Below are positions 53,338 to 58,863 of a stretch of 64,000 bases of DNA, in pieces (within the stretch, counting starts at the first letter, position 1; each line of letters opens with the position of its first letter). The stretch is taken from NCBI RefSeq assembly GCF_001886695.1, contig NZ_CP018097.1:62001-126000 (forward strand), in the 5' to 3' direction. The DNA is from Aurantiacibacter gangjinensis (GTDB taxonomy: Bacteria > Pseudomonadota > Alphaproteobacteria > Sphingomonadales > Sphingomonadaceae). Both the position numbers and the translations under genes were made by a program. The notes under the pieces were generated by a model. It worked only from the letters and a program-made list of their open reading frames with translations. It ran no database searches and was not told the DNA's origin.

Positions 53338-54360
53338 TTAGCCGTCCGACAATCCGTGCTTCTTTATGCAGTGGCGCAGCTGGTCGTAGCTGAGGCCAAG
53401 CGCCTTGGCGGTCTGGCGCTGGTTCCAGCGATTGGCGGCGAGCGCGTGCTCGACGATGGCTTTCTCGTGGTCGTCGACCGCAGCGCGCAGGTCGTCGACC
53501 TTCTCAAGGCGCGGGGTGATGGTCGGGGTAGCGCCATTGGCGGCAGGAGCAGCCTCCTTGGCGGGCGTGGCGGTGGAAAGCGGCTTCCACGGCGACTCGA
53601 ACGGGTCGAACACAACCTCACCGATGGGCTGTTCCCAGCTGTCCCAGCGATAGACGGCGCGCTCCACCACATTGCGCAATTCGCGCACATTGCCGGGCCA
53701 GGGATGATTTTCCAGCTGGCTGGATACGGCGTCGGCGAAGCCCGGCCATTCGTCCCACCTGAGCTCTGCGGCCATGCGCCGACCGAAATAGTCGGCCAGC
53801 ACTTCGATATCGCCTTCGCGCACGCGCAAGGGCGGCAAGGTGATGACTTCGAAACTGAGCCGGTCGAGCAGATCCGGGCGGAAGGTCCCTTCCTGCGCGC
53901 GGCGCGGCAGGTCTTCATTGGTGGCGGCAACGATGCGCACATCGACCTTGGTCGCGCGGCTCGATCCGATGCGAGTCACCTCGCCATACTCGACTGCGCG
54001 CAGCAGCCTTTCCTGCGCGCCCATGGAAAGCGTACCCAGTTCGTCGAGAAATAACGTGCCCCGGTCGGCTTCCTCAAACCTGCCTTCCCGCGCTCTGGTA
54101 GCGCCTGTGAACGCACCCTGTTCGTGGCCGAACAATTCGGCTTCGATCAGCGTTTCGGGCAGCGCCGCGCAGTTCATGGTGACCAGCGGCTCTTCCCAGC
54201 GATCGGACAGGCGGTGAAGGCGCTCGGCAATCAGTTCCTTGCCGGTGCCGCGCTCTCCGATCACCAATACGGGGCGCGCCATGGGGGCAGCACGGCTCGC
54301 CCGCTCCACCGCGTCGAGGAAGGCGCCGGACTGGCCGATAAACTGGTTTTCCCGATCCAT
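53338..54360 (-). CDS. pspF: Phage-shock sigma-54 activator PspF
   Basis: 340 residues from ATG 54360. No receiver domain: the AAA+ domain begins at once, as in PspF. 'VIGERGTGKELIAERLHRLS' is Walker A, 'EQGAFTGATRAREGRFEEA' holds the GAFTGA loop that contacts sigma-54, 'GTLFLDELGTLS' is Walker B, and 'HPWPGNVRELRNVVERAV' the arginine-finger region. The C-terminal Fis-type HTH is 'RQTAKALGLSYDQLRHCIK'. It activates the divergent psp promoter at 54460-54476. In other bacteria PspA inhibits PspF through the W56 loop region. Confidence 0.93.
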   Translation of the reverse strand: MDRENQFIGQSGAFLDAVERASRAAPMARPVLVIGERGTGKELIAERLHRLSDRWEEPLVTMNCAALPETLIEAELFGHEQGAFTGATRAREGRFEEADRGTLFLDELGTLSMGAQERLLRAVEYGEVTRIGSSRATKVDVRIVAATNEDLPRRAQEGTFRPDLLDRLSFEVITLPPLRVREGDIEVLADYFGRRMAAELRWDEWPGFADAVSSQLENHPWPGNVRELRNVVERAVYRWDSWEQPIGEVVFDPFESPWKPLSTATPAKEAAPAANGATPTITPRLEKVDDLRAAVDDHEKAIVEHALAANRWNQRQTAKALGLSYDQLRHCIKKHGLSDG

Positions 54361-54412
54361 GGCCGAGATATAGTGAAATTTCCCAATGCTTGGCAATAGG
54401 CGCCAATCGCCT

Positions 54413-54448
54413 TTTCCGGAAAGGAGTCAAAATCCGCAGATTTCTGCG
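54413..54448 (+). promoter_or_regulatory. Palindromes that may serve as PspF upstream sites
   Basis: TTTCCGGAAA (54413-54422) and CGCAGATTTCTGCG (54435-54448) are perfect inverted repeats in the pspF-psp gap just upstream of the sigma-54 promoter. PspF binds enhancer-like sites in this interval in enterobacteria, though usually farther upstream. Function inferred. Confidence 0.4.
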
Positions 54449-54459
54449 CCTCGCGCAGT

Positions 54460-54476
54460 TTGGCACGCTTCCTGCA
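54460..54476 (+). promoter_or_regulatory. Sigma-54 promoter of the psp operon
   Basis: TTGGCACGCTTCCTGCA has GG at -24 and GC at -12 with exactly ten bases between, matching the consensus TGGCAC-N5-TTGCA with one mismatch. Transcription should begin near 54486, just ahead of the 50-codon gene at 54512. The divergent pspF supplies the activator. Confidence 0.85.
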
Positions 54477-54511
54477 ATTCATCGGACAGAAAGGGAATTG
54501 GAGGAAACACA

Positions 54512-54664
54512 ATGTTCGATCAACGCTTCTTCACCAGCAAACTCGGCCACGCCGCCATGGTGAGTGTGGCCGCGATGATCGCGTTCACGATCTTTGTCGG
54601 CATGGTGCCCGCACCCGAAGCGCAGACGATGCTGATCGGTGCGCCTGTCGTGGAGCTGGCGTGA
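54512..54664 (+). CDS. 50-residue membrane peptide, first gene of the psp operon
   Basis: Starts at ATG 54512 with ribosome site GGAGGAAA. One hydrophobic segment ('MVSVAAMIAFTIFVGMV', about residues 16-32) follows a short basic, aromatic head 'MFDQRFFTSKLGH'. It is the first gene after the sigma-54 promoter. Its stop overlaps a possible GTG start of a longer PspA (GTGA). I know no named family; it may be a new small Psp component. Confidence 0.65.
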   Translation: MFDQRFFTSKLGHAAMVSVAAMIAFTIFVGMVPAPEAQTMLIGAPVVELA

Positions 54665-54801
54665 GCGACAAGACCCCCAACCCGTTGACGCCGCTGGGCG
54701 GAAGGGCGATGCCGGTAGGCACGCGTCTCGATCGCGAGATCGAGCGTATGCGTACCAGCCCTACGCCGACGGCCAACTCGCTTAATATCGGAGGACCCTT
54801 G

Positions 54802-55500
54802 ATGGGCATTTTCTCTCGTACCCGCGATATCATCGCTGCCAACTTTACCGAGCTTCTCGATCAGGCGGACGACCCGTCGAAGATGATCCGGATGATCATC
54901 CTGGAAATGGAAGAGACGCTGGTGGAAGTGCGGGCCAGCGCCGCGCGCACGATTGCCGACCAGAAGGAAATGCATCGCCATACGGTGAAGCTGGACCGCT
55001 TGCAGGCCGACTGGACCGAGAAGGCCCAGCTGGCGCTCAGCAAGGATCGCGAAGACCTGGCGCGTGCTGCGCTGATGGAAAAGCGCAAGGCTGCCGACAC
55101 GGCCGATCAGCTGAAGCAGGAGATCGCTGTGCTGGACGATGCGCTGCGCGCTTACGAACAGGACATTGCCAAGCTGCAGCATCGCCTGCGCGAAGCCCGC
55201 AGCCGGCAGACGCAAATCTCCGCCCGTCTCGAAAGTGCTGAAAACCGCGTCAAGATGCGCAGCCTGATGACGAGCGACCGCATGAGCGATGCCCATGCCC
55301 GCTTCGACCAGCTGGAGCGCCGCGTCGATTATGCGGAAGGCCATGCCGATGCCCTTGGCATCGAAAGCGGCCAGAAGAGCCTCGCCGATGAATTCGCCGC
55401 CCTCGAAGGCAGCGACAAGGTGAATGACGAACTGGAAGCCATGAAGCGCGCGCTGCGCCACCCGGACAAGGGCGCTGACGCTGGCAGCAAGAAAGACTGA
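54802..55500 (+). CDS. pspA: Phage shock protein A
   Basis: 232 residues from ATG 54802 with GGAGGACCC upstream. The amphipathic first helix 'MGIFSRTRDIIAANFTELL' and the long coiled coil ('DPSKMIRMIILEMEETLVEV' onward) are as in PspA/IM30, an ESCRT-III-like membrane-repair protein that also restrains PspF. The same frame is open upstream to GTG 54661, which has GGAG five bases before it and overlaps the previous stop; that form would carry 47 extra residues. Confidence 0.94.
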   Translation: MGIFSRTRDIIAANFTELLDQADDPSKMIRMIILEMEETLVEVRASAARTIADQKEMHRHTVKLDRLQADWTEKAQLALSKDREDLARAALMEKRKAADTADQLKQEIAVLDDALRAYEQDIAKLQHRLREARSRQTQISARLESAENRVKMRSLMTSDRMSDAHARFDQLERRVDYAEGHADALGIESGQKSLADEFAALEGSDKVNDELEAMKRALRHPDKGADAGSKKD

Positions 55501-55511
55501 GGGAATAGACC

Positions 55512-55817
55512 GTGGACAATCTGACCGGAATTTTGATCGTCGCCTGCATCTTCGTGGGCCTGCCATGGGTGATCATGCACTACATCACCAAGTGGAAGAC
55601 CGCCGCCACCATCACCACGGATGACGAGGCGCTGCTGGAGGAACTCTACCAGCTCGCCAAGCGCCTGGATGAGCGGATGGACACGGTAGAGCGCCTGGTC
55701 GCATCCGACAATCCCGATTTCCAGCCCCCGCGCCTGCAGCACGATCGCAGTATCGACAACGTGCCGCTTCGCGAACTGGAGGAAATGCTCGCCGAGAAGA
55801 AAGGAGAACGCGCATGA
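55512..55817 (+). CDS. pspB: Phage shock protein B
   Basis: 101 residues from GTG 55512. One N-terminal helix 'ILIVACIFVGLPWVIMHYI' is followed by the PspB coiled coil 'LYQLAKRLDERMDTVERLVA' and 'SDNPDFQPP'. The C-terminus is longer than in E. coli. PspB and PspC sense inner-membrane stress and release PspF from PspA. Overlaps pspC by 4 bases. Confidence 0.93.
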   Translation: MDNLTGILIVACIFVGLPWVIMHYITKWKTAATITTDDEALLEELYQLAKRLDERMDTVERLVASDNPDFQPPRLQHDRSIDNVPLRELEEMLAEKKGERA

Positions 55818-56191
55818 ACACCCCCCGCACCACGCTTTACAGGGACCGCCGCAACGGCAAGATCATGGGCGTATGCTCCGGCATCGCCGACTACACCGGG
55901 ATCAATGCCCTGTGGGTCCGCCTGATGGCCGTCTTCCTGCTCTTCGCGACAAGCGGTTCCATCATCCCCTTCTACCTGATCGCCGGCCTGCTGCTGAACA
56001 ACAAGCCCGCGCATCTCTACACCGCGCCGGATGAAACGCAGTACTGGCAGCGCGTGCGGCAGAGCCCCAAGCGCACCGCCCGCGAAATCCGCGCGCAGAT
56101 GAAGGATATCGACCGGCGCCTGGCCAGCGTAGAAAACTACTACGTCTCCGCCAATCCGCGCCTCTCGCAGGAAATCGAACAGCTGCGCTGA
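55814..56191 (+). CDS. pspC: Phage shock protein C
   Basis: 125 residues. 'TLYRDRRNGKIMGVCSGIADYTGI' and 'LWVRLMAVFLLFATSGSIIPFYLIAGLLL' (residues about 6-62, quoted in part) define the PspC domain. The C-terminal tail is a short coiled coil 'KDIDRRLASVENYYVSANP' like the one in the following proteins. It starts inside the pspB stop (ATGA). Confidence 0.93.
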   Translation: MNTPRTTLYRDRRNGKIMGVCSGIADYTGINALWVRLMAVFLLFATSGSIIPFYLIAGLLLNNKPAHLYTAPDETQYWQRVRQSPKRTAREIRAQMKDIDRRLASVENYYVSANPRLSQEIEQLR

Positions 56192-56232
56192 ACGCTTCTG
56201 CTCAACATGAATACAAATGAGGGACCGAAATC

Positions 56233-56541
56233 ATGGAGTATATGGCCCTGCTTATCCCGCTAGCTCCGTTCATAATGGTCGTGCTGATAGTGTGGATGAA
56301 CAATCAGAAGAAACTTGCTGAGAAACAGCTAGATGCAACAGCAAGCTCCAGCGCTGAAAAGGCTGCGCAATATGCAAGCCGCGTGCAGCAGCTGGAGGAC
56401 CGGGTGCAGGTACTGGAGCGGATTGTGACCGACCGCGGCTATGACGTCGCCACCCAGATCGAGGCACTGCGCGACACCCGCGAAACCGAGGATCGCGATG
56501 CCGGCGTGCCACTTAACCTCGCCCGTAAGGAGAAAGCATGA
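56233..56541 (+). CDS. PspB-like small membrane protein 1
   Basis: 102 residues. An N-terminal membrane helix ('MALLIPLAPFIMVVLIVWM') is followed by a coiled coil and the motif 'VQVLERIVTDRGYDVATQ' then 'IEALRD'. The same layout returns in the next genes, and the motif resembles the end of PspB ('DTVERLVASDN'). It ends in 'GVPLNLARKEKA', echoed in the next protein. The stop overlaps the next start (ATGATGG). Confidence 0.8.
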   Translation: MEYMALLIPLAPFIMVVLIVWMNNQKKLAEKQLDATASSSAEKAAQYASRVQQLEDRVQVLERIVTDRGYDVATQIEALRDTRETEDRDAGVPLNLARKEKA

Positions 56542-56888
56542 TGGATTGGGGAGGACCGACTTTCGTCGTCCTGCTGGTTGCGATCAGCACCATCGGATGG
56601 CTCGTCAACAACTGGATCCGCGCCAAGCACGGCTATTCGCTGGAAGACGAATGGGGCGGCATGACCGAGCCCACCGAAAAGCGCAGCGACAGGGAATTGC
56701 GCGAGCAGAATGCCAAGCTGGTTGAGACGCTGGAGAAGATGCAGGACCGCATGGTCGTGCTGGAGCGGATCGTGACCGACAAGGGCTATACCGTCGCCGA
56801 GGAAATCGAGGCGCTGCGCGACCGCCCGGTGCGTGAGACCCGCGACAACGGCGTACCGCTGAATATCGAAACGAAGGAGCGCGTGTGA
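56538..56888 (+). CDS. PspB-like small membrane protein 2
   Basis: 116 residues from ATG 56538 (or 56541). Membrane helix 'TFVVLLVAISTIGWLVNNW', linker with 'YSLEDEWGG', then 'MVVLERIVTDKGYTVAEE' and 'IEALRD', ending 'GVPLNIETKERV'. Closest to copy 1 in its tail and to copy 3 in its helix/linker ('NNWIRAKHGYSLE' versus 'NTWIRVKNGYPLE'). Confidence 0.8.
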   Translation: MMDWGGPTFVVLLVAISTIGWLVNNWIRAKHGYSLEDEWGGMTEPTEKRSDRELREQNAKLVETLEKMQDRMVVLERIVTDKGYTVAEEIEALRDRPVRETRDNGVPLNIETKERV

Positions 56889-57196
56889 TGGATTATCTCG
56901 GATATGTCGGCCTTGGTATCGGCTGCGGTTTCATCGCGCTGGCCTGGGTGGCGAATACCTGGATCAGGGTGAAGAACGGCTATCCGCTGGAAAACAGCTG
57001 GGGCAAGGCGATCTACCCCAAGAACGACCAGGCCGTGGAGCGCGTGAAGCTGCTGACGCAGGAAAACGCCGCGCTGCAGGCAGAGCTCGGCTCGTTGAAA
57101 GATCGCCTCGCCAATGTGGAGCGGATCGTGACCGATGGCGGCTACCAGCTGTCCCACGAGATCGACCGCCTGCGTGACGAGCGGGGAGTGAACTGA
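56885..57196 (+). CDS. PspB-like small membrane protein 3
   Basis: 103 residues from GTG 56885 or ATG 56888. Helix 'VGLGIGCGFIALAWVANTW', linker 'VKNGYPLENSWGKAIYP', coiled coil, then 'LANVERIVTDGGYQLSHE' and 'IDRLRDERG'. Four-base overlap with copy 2 and one-base contact with copy 4. Confidence 0.8.
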   Translation: MMDYLGYVGLGIGCGFIALAWVANTWIRVKNGYPLENSWGKAIYPKNDQAVERVKLLTQENAALQAELGSLKDRLANVERIVTDGGYQLSHEIDRLRDERGVN

Positions 57197-57492
57197 TGGA
57201 TTGGGATCTCGTCGTCATCTTCGGCTTCATTCTCCTCATCATCGCGATGGTCCTGCCCTTCGCCTATGTCGTGAACCAGCGGGTCCAGCAGCACGAACAG
57301 AAGAAGCTGGAGCTGCAGGCGCGGATCGAGGAAGCCAAGGCCGCACAGGCCGTGCAGCCGACCGAAACGCAGGCTGCGCTGGAAGACCGGTTGCGCGTGC
57401 TGGAGCGGATCGTCACCGATCCATCCAATGACCTCTCACGCCAGATCGAGGATCTGCGCACTCTGGATGCGAGGCAGGAGACCGCGCAATGA
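57196..57492 (+). CDS. PspB-like small membrane protein 4
   Basis: 98 residues from ATG 57196. Helix 'LVVIFGFILLIIAMVLPFAY', coiled coil 'QHEQKKLELQARIEEAKAAQ', then 'LRVLERIVTDPSNDLSRQ' and 'IEDLRT'. Stop overlaps the next start (ATGA). Confidence 0.8.
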   Translation: MDWDLVVIFGFILLIIAMVLPFAYVVNQRVQQHEQKKLELQARIEEAKAAQAVQPTETQAALEDRLRVLERIVTDPSNDLSRQIEDLRTLDARQETAQ

Positions 57493-57725
57493 GCGTATGG
57501 GCGGCAATCGTTCTGGTCGTGCTGATCGTCGTGGTTGCGCGAGCCTACCATGTGCGGCGCGGCAACGGCCTGGCCGATGAAGAACGCAGCGCGCTCGAAC
57601 AGGAGCGCGACGAAGCCCGCCGCGAGCGCGAGGCGCTGAAGAAGAGGCTGGAAGTGCTGGAACGCATAGCCACCGACCCCGCCCGCCGCACGGCGGACGA
57701 AATCGAAAAACTGCGCGACGAGTAA
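57489..57725 (+). CDS. PspB-like small membrane protein 5
   Basis: 78 residues from ATG 57489. Helix 'SVWAAIVLVVLIVVVARAY', a strongly charged coiled coil ('EERSALEQERDEARRERE'), then 'LEVLERIATDPARRTADE' and 'IEKLRDE' at the very end. A compact version of the same design. Confidence 0.8.
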   Translation: MSVWAAIVLVVLIVVVARAYHVRRGNGLADEERSALEQERDEARREREALKKRLEVLERIATDPARRTADEIEKLRDE

Positions 57726-57748
57726 TCACAGGCAACCGCAGGAAGGAT

Positions 57749-57994
57749 ATGACCATGACGCAAATCGACCTTCTGATCGCAGCCAGCACCCTTCTTGCGC
57801 TGGCCATGCTGACTGCCGCAGCTCTGCGTGGCTGGCATGGATGGCTGGCTCTTAAGAACCGCGAGCTGGAGATGCTGCGAACCGCGCCCGAACTCGAAGG
57901 CGGATCGAGCGAAGGCATGGCCCGCATCGAGATCGCCAGCTTGAAAGAGCGCATCCGCAAGCTGGAAGCCATCGCAAGCGGCGTCGATCTCTAA
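57749..57994 (+). CDS. PspB-like small membrane protein 6 (divergent)
   Basis: 81 residues from ATG 57749 (or 57755), after GGAAGGA. Helix 'LLIAASTLLALAMLTAAAL', then a shorter coil with 'SLKERIRKLEAIASGVDL'. The LERI(V/A)TD motif is reduced to 'LEAIASG', so this is the most diverged member. It ends the array; a REP pair follows. Confidence 0.7.
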   Translation: MTMTQIDLLIAASTLLALAMLTAAALRGWHGWLALKNRELEMLRTAPELEGGSSEGMARIEIASLKERIRKLEAIASGVDL

Positions 57995-58003
57995 GCCCCC
58001 CAC

Positions 58004-58096
58004 CGCTCATCCTGAGCTTGTCGAAGGATTGCCTTTTCTTCTATCGCAGCGCCGAAACCGAAGGGCAGCCCTTCGACAAGCTCAGGGCGAACGGAG
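58004..58096. repeat. REP pair between the PspB-like array and sufE
   Basis: Inverted units 58004-58027 (core CTCATCCTGAGCTTGTCGAA) and 58069-58094 (core CCCTTCGACAAGCTCAGGG). Same family as the element in truB. Its right end (ACGGAG) coincides with the ribosome site of sufE. Confidence 0.8.
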
Positions 58097-58103
58097 TGTT
58101 TTT

Positions 58104-58511
58104 TTGAGATCCTTGCAAGACATTCACGAAGAATACGATTTCCTTGAAGGCGATGAACGCTATCGGCTACTGATTGAACTGGGCCGCGAGCTGGACGCGA
58201 TGCCCGATGCGCTCAAGACCGATGCGACGCTGGTGCGCGGGTGCTCCGCCTCTGTATGGGTTTATCCCACCGGCGAGAGCGACAAGCTCCATTTCCTTGC
58301 AGACAGCAATGCGGCGATCACAAAGGGCATTGTCGCGCTTGTCATCGCCGCCGTGCAGGATCGCCCGGCTGCCGAGGTGGCGGATATGGATGTGATGGGC
58401 GCCCTCGCCCCGTTCGACCTGAAAAACCAGCTTTCCTCCAACCGTACGCAGGGCGTGCCCAATATGATCGCGCTGGTGAAAGAACACGCCGCGCGGATCG
58501 CTGCCGCCTGA
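58104..58511 (+). CDS. sufE: SufE-family sulfur acceptor
   Basis: 135 residues from TTG 58104; this start gives 'MRSLQDIHEEYDFLEG', the normal beginning of SufE, and no ATG fits. The acceptor Cys is C47 in 'LVRGCSASVW'. SufE takes persulfide from the cysteine desulfurase SufS for Fe-S cluster assembly. Other suf genes are not here. The ribosome site lies in the end of a REP element. Confidence 0.9.
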   Translation: MRSLQDIHEEYDFLEGDERYRLLIELGRELDAMPDALKTDATLVRGCSASVWVYPTGESDKLHFLADSNAAITKGIVALVIAAVQDRPAAEVADMDVMGALAPFDLKNQLSSNRTQGVPNMIALVKEHAARIAAA

Positions 58512-58512
58512 C

Positions 58513-58863
58513 ATGGCGCGGCCGCTCTGGCTGGCGGCAGGCCTGTTCTTCATGGCGCTGGGTTGGCTGGGTATGATCCTGCCGGGTCTGCCGGGCTTCG
58601 TATTCCTGATCGTCGCGGCCTGGTGCTTCGGCAAGGGCAGTCCGCGCTGGCAGGCATGGCTGCTAAGCCATCCCGCCTACGGCCCGCCTCTGCGAGACTG
58701 GCGAGACCATCGCCGCATCTCGCGCCGTGCCAAGATATCCGCCATAGCTTTCATGGCGCTGGCGGGCGCGCTTACCACGTGGTTGATAGGCTTTCCGTTT
58801 GCCTTGGTAACAATCCTCGTTCTGCTGGCGGTTGCCCTATGGATTTGGACGCGCGCCGAGTGA
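58513..58863 (+). CDS. DUF454 (YbaN-like) membrane protein
   Basis: 116 residues with three or four membrane helices. 'LGWLGMILPGLPGFVFLIVA' and 'WCFGKGSPRWQAWLLSHP' are the family pattern. Function unknown. Starts one base after the sufE stop. Confidence 0.87.
   Translation: MARPLWLAAGLFFMALGWLGMILPGLPGFVFLIVAAWCFGKGSPRWQAWLLSHPAYGPPLRDWRDHRRISRRAKISAIAFMALAGALTTWLIGFPFALVTILVLLAVALWIWTRAE

Follow-up and report, generated by a model that had tools for sequence, protein, structure and literature searches.

The analyzed window is a 64,000-nt stretch of the Aurantiacibacter gangjinensis chromosome. It contains a pspFABC gene set followed on the 3′ side by an array of six small genes, o1–o6, which spans positions 56233–57994 (Table 1). 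The array begins 41 nt after pspC. Adjacent genes overlap by 4 nt at o1/o2, o2/o3 and o4/o5 and by 1 nt at o3/o4, and o6 follows o5 after a gap of 23 nt. The gene 3′ of o6 is presumably a sufE-like gene. The initial annotation had reported six consecutive small genes of 78–116 residues, each with one N-terminal membrane helix and a cytoplasmic coiled coil, the first five overlapping or touching. The sizes and overlaps are borne out by the open reading frames and the hydrophobic N-terminal stretches by Kyte-Doolittle profiles, and the overlapping layout of o1–o5 recurs in relatives.

Table 1. Genes and sites of the psp locus and the adjoining array (window coordinates).
Feature	Position	Strand	Remarks
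pspF-like sigma-54 activator gene	53338..54396	-	ORF, start uncertain; divergent from the operon; matched at the same place in relatives; name from sequence and context
sigma-54-like (-24/-12) promoter site TGGCACGCTTCCTGCA	54461..54476	+	motif match
50-codon hydrophobic ORF	54512-54664		between sigma-54-like site and pspA
pspA	54802..55500	+	TIGR02977 272.6 bits (cut-off 242.95)
pspB	55512..55817	+	GTG start; TIGR02976 92.0 bits (cut-off 51.7); PF06667 75.9 bits (cut-off 25.6)
pspC	55814..56191	+	TIGR02978 128.2 bits (cut-off 104); last ~36 residues form a tail related to the array module
o1	56233..56541	+	102 aa; one TM helix and tail module; most PspB-like array member
o2	56538..56888	+	116 aa; TM, juxtamembrane HGYxLExxWG, tail module
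o3	56885..57196	+	103 aa; GTG start; TM, GYPLExxWG, tail module; nearest of the array to the PspC tail
o4	57196..57492	+	98 aa; TM and tail module
o5	57489..57725	+	78 aa; TM and tail module
o6	57749..57994	+	81 aa; TM and a shortened, strongly conserved tail, RIEIA-LKERIRKLEAIASGVDL; distantly related, closest to o5 and o4

All six array proteins carry an N-terminal hydrophobic stretch (best 19-mer Kyte-Doolittle value 1.86–3.04), and in each of them basic residues follow. According to the positive-inside rule, a basic flank after a membrane helix places the remainder of the chain in the cytoplasm. The tails of the array proteins are predicted to be cytoplasmic because basic residues follow the helix. 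Each protein thus looks like one N-terminal membrane helix joined to a cytoplasmic helix, in the same orientation as PspB.

The sigma-54-like site upstream of pspA is expected by chance at a mean of 0.11 per shuffled window. A looser sigma-54-like pattern is present within 600 nt 5′ of pspA in 37 of the 45 relatives having upstream DNA, compared to 81 of 2000 random 600-nt pieces from the same loci; in one relative (L031), it lies at an odd place, -18. No terminator-like site was found on the + strand in 54380–58600. Among neighbouring gene pairs of relatives ending in o1–o5, 139 of 176 touch or overlap, a count that leans upward as the starts were picked by a script favouring a ribosome site, ATG and the expected length. 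The layout of a translational unit, as initially proposed, is supported by these pairs. From these sequence features, we infer that o1–o6 form one transcript; the promoter-like site and the operon layout would make the array a PspF/sigma-54-controlled set. A 17-nt perfect inverted repeat (CCTGAGCTTGTCGAAGG; 58011–58027 and 58070–58086) is located between o6 and the sufE-like gene. It may be a repeat element, or the psp transcript may end there. The hydrophobic ORF 5′ of pspA is matched at ≥40 bits in 15 of 50 relatives and has no family match above cut-off in the Pfam and NCBIfam scans, and a similar-looking ORF was seen by eye 5′ of pspA in L127. It is possibly a further small Psp protein.

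The products of o1–o5 have in common a part of ~32 residues, in which a zipper-like stretch precedes the motif (L/V)ERI(V/A)TD and then EIExLR. The initial annotation had five proteins ending in LERI(V/A)TD..(D/E)I(E/D).LR. Proteins o1, o2 and o4 do contain LERIVTD and o5 contains LERIATD, but o3 has VERIVTD, and in o1, o2 and o4 the chain runs past the motif. The full motif is present in the orthologues of o1 (45/45), o2 (48/51), o3 (46/46), o4 (37/37) and o5 (47/47). With mutual hhalign probabilities of 95.7–99.9%, o1–o5 are paralogues keeping one tail. These alignments used a subset of 27 of the 50 loci, and that of o4 kept only members scoring >80.

The two ends of these proteins differ in their conservation. 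Between paralogues of one locus, the module is 0.48 identical; the N-parts are 0.29 identical versus 0.28 for shuffled sequences (356 pairs, o4-type members below 80 bits and the 3 of 51 o2 members without the motif being dropped). The o2/o3 N-parts exceed other paralogue pairs (0.39 identical). Among orthologues, N-part identity is 0.35–0.61. Since paralogue N-parts are at the shuffled level and orthologue N-parts are at 0.35–0.61, every gene has an anchor that is conserved within its own group, and the tail is common to all. In the orthologue alignments, GYPL..WG is invariant in o3 and HGY in o2, both beside the membrane helix. In a tree of 98 proteins, the five groups require 5 label changes (minimum possible 4); the tree unites o3 (100/100) and joins o2 to o3 (100/98), with 36 of the 95 inner branches unresolved.

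The module is specific within the window's own genome. A search with the pooled module recovered the five array genes at E ≤ 1.9e-13, followed by PspC (E 0.19) and o6 (E 0.39), neither of them significant, and then by a match at 1.38. The o3 profile ranked o3, o2, o1, o5 and o4 first; the tail of PspC came next (E 0.009), with noise starting from 0.65.

The sixth protein retains only the first half of the motif, LKERIRKLEAIASGVDL, and the full motif is found in 0 of 49 o6 orthologues. Its C-terminal end is nearly invariant (RIEIADLKERIRKLEAIA.GVDL). By hhalign, o6 matches o5 at 94% and o4 at 77–85%, and its scores against PspC (9–12) are not above controls. As judged from these comparisons, o6 is a separate, strongly conserved and weaker relative that is securely linked only to o5 and o4.

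The initial annotation proposed that the array proteins are PspB-like and that their motif echoes the C-terminal part of PspB and the PspC tail. A relation to Psp proteins is upheld by profile searches, both by matches to PspB and PspC models and by hhalign to the PspC tail. The PspB-like label is only partly upheld. Protein o1 passes PF06667 narrowly (27.3 versus a cut-off of 25.6 bits) and scores 28.9 versus 51.7 bits in TIGR02976; o2–o6 are below the cut-offs of both models, and none of the six reaches the 51.7 bits of TIGR02976. Protein o5 resembles PspB, matching TIGR02976 at E 6.3e-5, below cut-off. In scans of the o1, o3 and o5 orthologue sets against 18,950 NCBIfam models (E ≤ 0.01), o1 orthologues match TIGR02976 in 21 of 27 cases and TIGR02978 in 20 of 27, o5 orthologues match TIGR02976 in 9 of 28, and o3 orthologues match TIGR02978 in 21 of 25, via the second half of the PspC model. 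In each of the three sets, a PspB/PspC model is the commonest match (21/25 for o3, 21/27 for o1, 9/28 for o5).

Profile comparison places o2–o5 closer to the C-terminal tail of PspC than to PspB. Against PspC, hhalign gives 94.6–95% for o3, 82–89% for o4, 78–81% for o2 and 77–81% for o5, and the scores (33–49) exceed those of controls consisting of reversed profiles of other families (≤24.5), reversed self (≤29.9) and PspA (≤25.3, the value for the PspA coiled coil with o1). The o1/PspC comparison (6–10%, score 21–23) is within the control range. All PspB/array pairs are <50%, with scores of 14–29 for o1–o5. Thus, of the proposed echo, the relation to the PspC tail stands, but the shared part is nearer the PspC tail (95% for o3) than PspB. 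From these comparisons, we conclude that the array tail belongs with the PspB/PspC tails and is nearest that of PspC.

The PspC tail (TIGR02978 positions ~81–121) has the same two-part construction, RLAxVExxYVSxNPRLxxEIExLR in PspC compared to RLANVERIVTDxGYQLTHEIExLR in the array. However, the array proteins have one helix only and lack the PspC domain, with no match to PF04024 in o1–o6 at E ≤ 10 (Pfam scan) and with TIGR02978 matched in its second half only, and (L/V)ERI(V/A)TD replaces VExxYVS of PspC. The array proteins resemble PspB (PF06667/TIGR02976) in size, in their predicted single N-terminal helix, basic flank and zipper-like stretch, but the window's PspB lacks EIExLR, which forms the second half of the tail, and a true pspB is also present at the locus. 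PspD, PspG and PspM are small, psp-regulated accessory proteins located at the membrane, features that the array members probably share. The PspD and PspG models have no match to o1–o6 in the Pfam and NCBIfam scans, and the PspM model matched one of 28 o5 orthologues (E 0.0065).

An AlphaFold model of o3 contains helices 3–31 and 48–101 (mean pLDDT 71.0, pTM 0.32), and one of PspC has a helix break at 114 (mean pLDDT 63.8, pTM 0.34), both at modest confidence. In the o3 model, helix 48–101 is unbroken, with no turn at the TD of the motif, although the sequence had suggested one. PDB sequence searches returned no solved PspB or PspC structure.

In all six array genes, dN/dS is far below 1, with medians of 0.13, 0.17, 0.10, 0.16, 0.18 and 0.12 for o1–o6, respectively, a largest single array-gene value of 0.39, and medians of 0.08 for pspB and 0.05 for pspC (5 to 11 orthologue pairs per gene, from loci other than the window). 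Chance ORFs are rejected by the dN/dS values of 0.10–0.18 and the conserved gene order. The commonest order, pspB pspC o1 o2 o3 o4 o5 o6, is found exactly in 19 of 50 loci, which were fetched with o2 and are biased to array carriers. Absences among these loci, some of whose contigs end early, number 20 for o4, 6 for o1, 5 for o3, 3 for o5 and 1 for o6; o4 is the member most often missing (20/50) or multiplied (6/50).

The array is nearly confined to one family among the genomes sampled. At the level of the order, an o3 search matched 69 of 147 genomes, comprising 62 of the 64 in the window's family and seven of 83 outside it, the latter being weak matches (E 1.4e-4 to 0.009). At the class level, the module has a match at E ≤ 0.001 in seven of 289 genomes, four of them from the window's family; the G180 match corresponds to the tail of PspC. 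PspB is matched in 32 of the 289. Within the family (149 genomes), PspC is found in 139 and the tail module in 136, with 1–7 copies per positive genome (mean 3.6). Both are present in 135 genomes, PspC only in four (G471, G487, G503 and G520), the module only in one (G490, 66% complete) and neither in nine (Fisher 9e-11, relatedness ignored; limits of E 1e-6 for PspC and 1e-4 for the module, with domain-only PspC matches of G053 and of G503, at a contig end, counted as present). Among the 150 module matches listed, of 484, 148, from 84 genomes, share the contig and strand of PspC and lie downstream of it by no more than 1791 nt, and the other two are both in G490. The linkage to psp that had been proposed is therefore seen in most relatives, and the absence of linkage that the initial annotation would have taken as a refutation is not observed among the listed matches.

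The o1 profile matches 7997 of 7998 scored candidates at E ≤ 1e-3. Among the 120 matches listed, the named ones are mostly called “hypothetical protein” and some “Phage shock protein B”. Annotation of the o1 and o5 orthologues is inconsistent, as UniRef names some “Phage shock protein B” and NCBI “hypothetical”. One o1 homologue (P0038), 61% identical to o1, is labelled as from the cyanobacterium Leptolyngbya sp. 15MV and probably reflects sphingomonad contamination of that assembly.

Several genomes depart from the common arrangement. G053 (100% complete by estimate, ~40 contigs) has no PspB match even at E ≤ 1, using a profile that finds PspB in 7 of 7 other genomes searched alike. Its PspC of 88 residues stops after the PspC domain and is tailless, and o1- and o5-type genes then follow. 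In G319 and G414, which are from another family, pspABC is followed by two o1-type proteins. In G319, the tail of one is of the PspC type (0.54 identical to that of its own PspC, 0.23 to PspB), and the tail of the other is of the PspB type (0.64 identical to PspB, 0.36 to PspC). By profile comparison, the o1 profile matches the PspB-tailed protein at 97.5%, and the PspC profile matches the PspC-tailed protein at 80.8%. In G487 and G520, o6 is the sole array-type match after pspABC, and G471 has pspABC alone, with no array match after pspC. Two o5-type genes in G327 (L117, 2727–3209) lie ~80 kb away from the psp operon of that genome (L121), next to what we take to be dut- and coaBC-like genes. 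G070 has one o5-type gene, with no psp gene within the 5.5 kb read. Judging from these o5-type genes, linkage to psp is not a requirement of the tail in every genome.

A 2024 survey (PMC11237479) refers in one phrase to “PspB duplicates” in psp operons, citing a single accession (AOL22920.1) as an example, and, in the sections considered here, describes the PspC tail as PspB-like and a divergent PspB fused to PspC. These duplicates may include array members, but the same sections mention neither an ordered set of several genes nor orthologous groups, their distribution or o6, and the words sphingomon and erythrobacter are absent from the main text. The portions considered of PMC9241875 say only that all its strains carry psp genes, those of PMC11186258 report changes of PspA/B/C in Zymomonas under stress, and in those of PMC9239133 the words sphingomon and alphaproteobacteria do not occur. 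Among the titles and abstracts searched, which covered few subscription papers, none was found on the array as a set or, besides the Zymomonas work, on sphingomonad psp expression. New here are a conserved set of one-helix proteins that bear a Psp tail and the almost exclusive occurrence of this set in one family among the genomes sampled, as well as a separate o6 and tail exchange in G053 and G319/G414.

The function of the array can be considered in light of PspB and PspC. Interactions between the cytoplasmic domains of these two proteins reportedly silence the response. As described in the parts of PMC5596341 and PMC3068692 considered here, PspB and PspC associate in the membrane as a complex. 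Once the system is switched on, the C-terminal cytoplasmic domain of PspC binds PspA and PspF is released (PMC5596341). Contact with PspA requires the PspC zipper, residues 77–98 in E. coli (PMC5596341, PMC3068692), E. coli PspB and PspC interact via their membrane regions, and whether the PspC tail lies in the periplasm or in the cytoplasm was a matter of dispute (PMC3068692). By analogy, and with moderate confidence, we propose that the different membrane anchors in the array all present the same constant tail and that this tail engages PspA, PspB or PspC, serving to anchor or tune PspA under PspF/sigma-54 control. Membrane stress would induce the operon and fill the membrane with extra tails. 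By homology to the PspC tail, these may bind PspA or pair with the tails of PspB/PspC. PspA bound in this manner would be held at the membrane, so that the response is prolonged or tuned, and the place or time at which each tail becomes available would depend on its particular anchor.

We think that this anchoring and tuning of PspA is the most likely outcome, with anchor-specific inputs as the main rival. According to the latter, the array would act mainly on the input side as a combinatorial sensor, each anchor sensing a different membrane state or protein and signaling through the common tail, singly or in heteromers with PspB/PspC. The anchors fit such a role, being no more alike between paralogues than shuffled sequence (except o2/o3) yet conserved among orthologues, with the invariant GYPL..WG and HGY residues set beside the membrane helix; the copy number of 1–7 and the interaction of E. 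coli PspB and PspC through membrane regions are also in its favor. However, a first signal could not come from the array if it is made only after psp induction, and we consider a mainly input role unlikely. A role in output only, as a stoichiometric PspA-docking layer or a PspA titrator whose anchors differ merely by drift, would account for the constant tail, the variable copy number and the place behind a psp promoter-like site. It is at odds with the conservation of the N-parts within orthologous groups (0.35–0.61) and with the partly fixed order (19 of 50 loci), which makes the members look other than interchangeable, and we give this reading a similarly low probability.

Two further explanations concern what the proteins are. 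Plain PspB duplicates are rejected on the grounds that the tail is nearer PspC, with o1 as a partial exception. Alternatively, these could be generic one-helix coiled-coil proteins of the FtsL/FtsB/ZapB kind that share the operon, their likeness to PspB/PspC being low-complexity helix similarity. Single scans do give weak ZapB, FtsL and bZIP matches, some with better E-values than PspB/PspC (ZapB with o3, 3.6e-5, Pfam), and the PDB searches gave nothing below E 0.088 and only coiled coils and alike at E 0.09–1. Across orthologues, however, PspB/PspC models are the most frequent NCBIfam matches of o3, o1 and o5, and the linkage to psp and the co-occurrence with PspC in the family also speak against such an origin. 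In the window's genome, the o3 and pooled-module searches found no other match above noise; on this specificity, a generic coiled coil is rejected, and we regard it as very improbable.

Beyond the anchoring and tuning of PspA, we raise a broader proposal tentatively, as possible rather than likely: the sphingomonad PspB/PspC tail may be a separable cassette carried on several anchors in a multi-input Psp system, in which tails in trans can replace those of PspB/PspC, as in G053. The array bears on the question of how membrane stress is sensed by PspB and PspC and passed on to PspA. Most sampled genomes of the family keep one tail on several anchors, which provides natural and directly testable separations of “sensor” and “tail”, and G053, in which PspB and PspC have apparently given up their tails to other anchors, is a natural test case. 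Our results also suggest that many proteins now called hypothetical are components of the Psp system.
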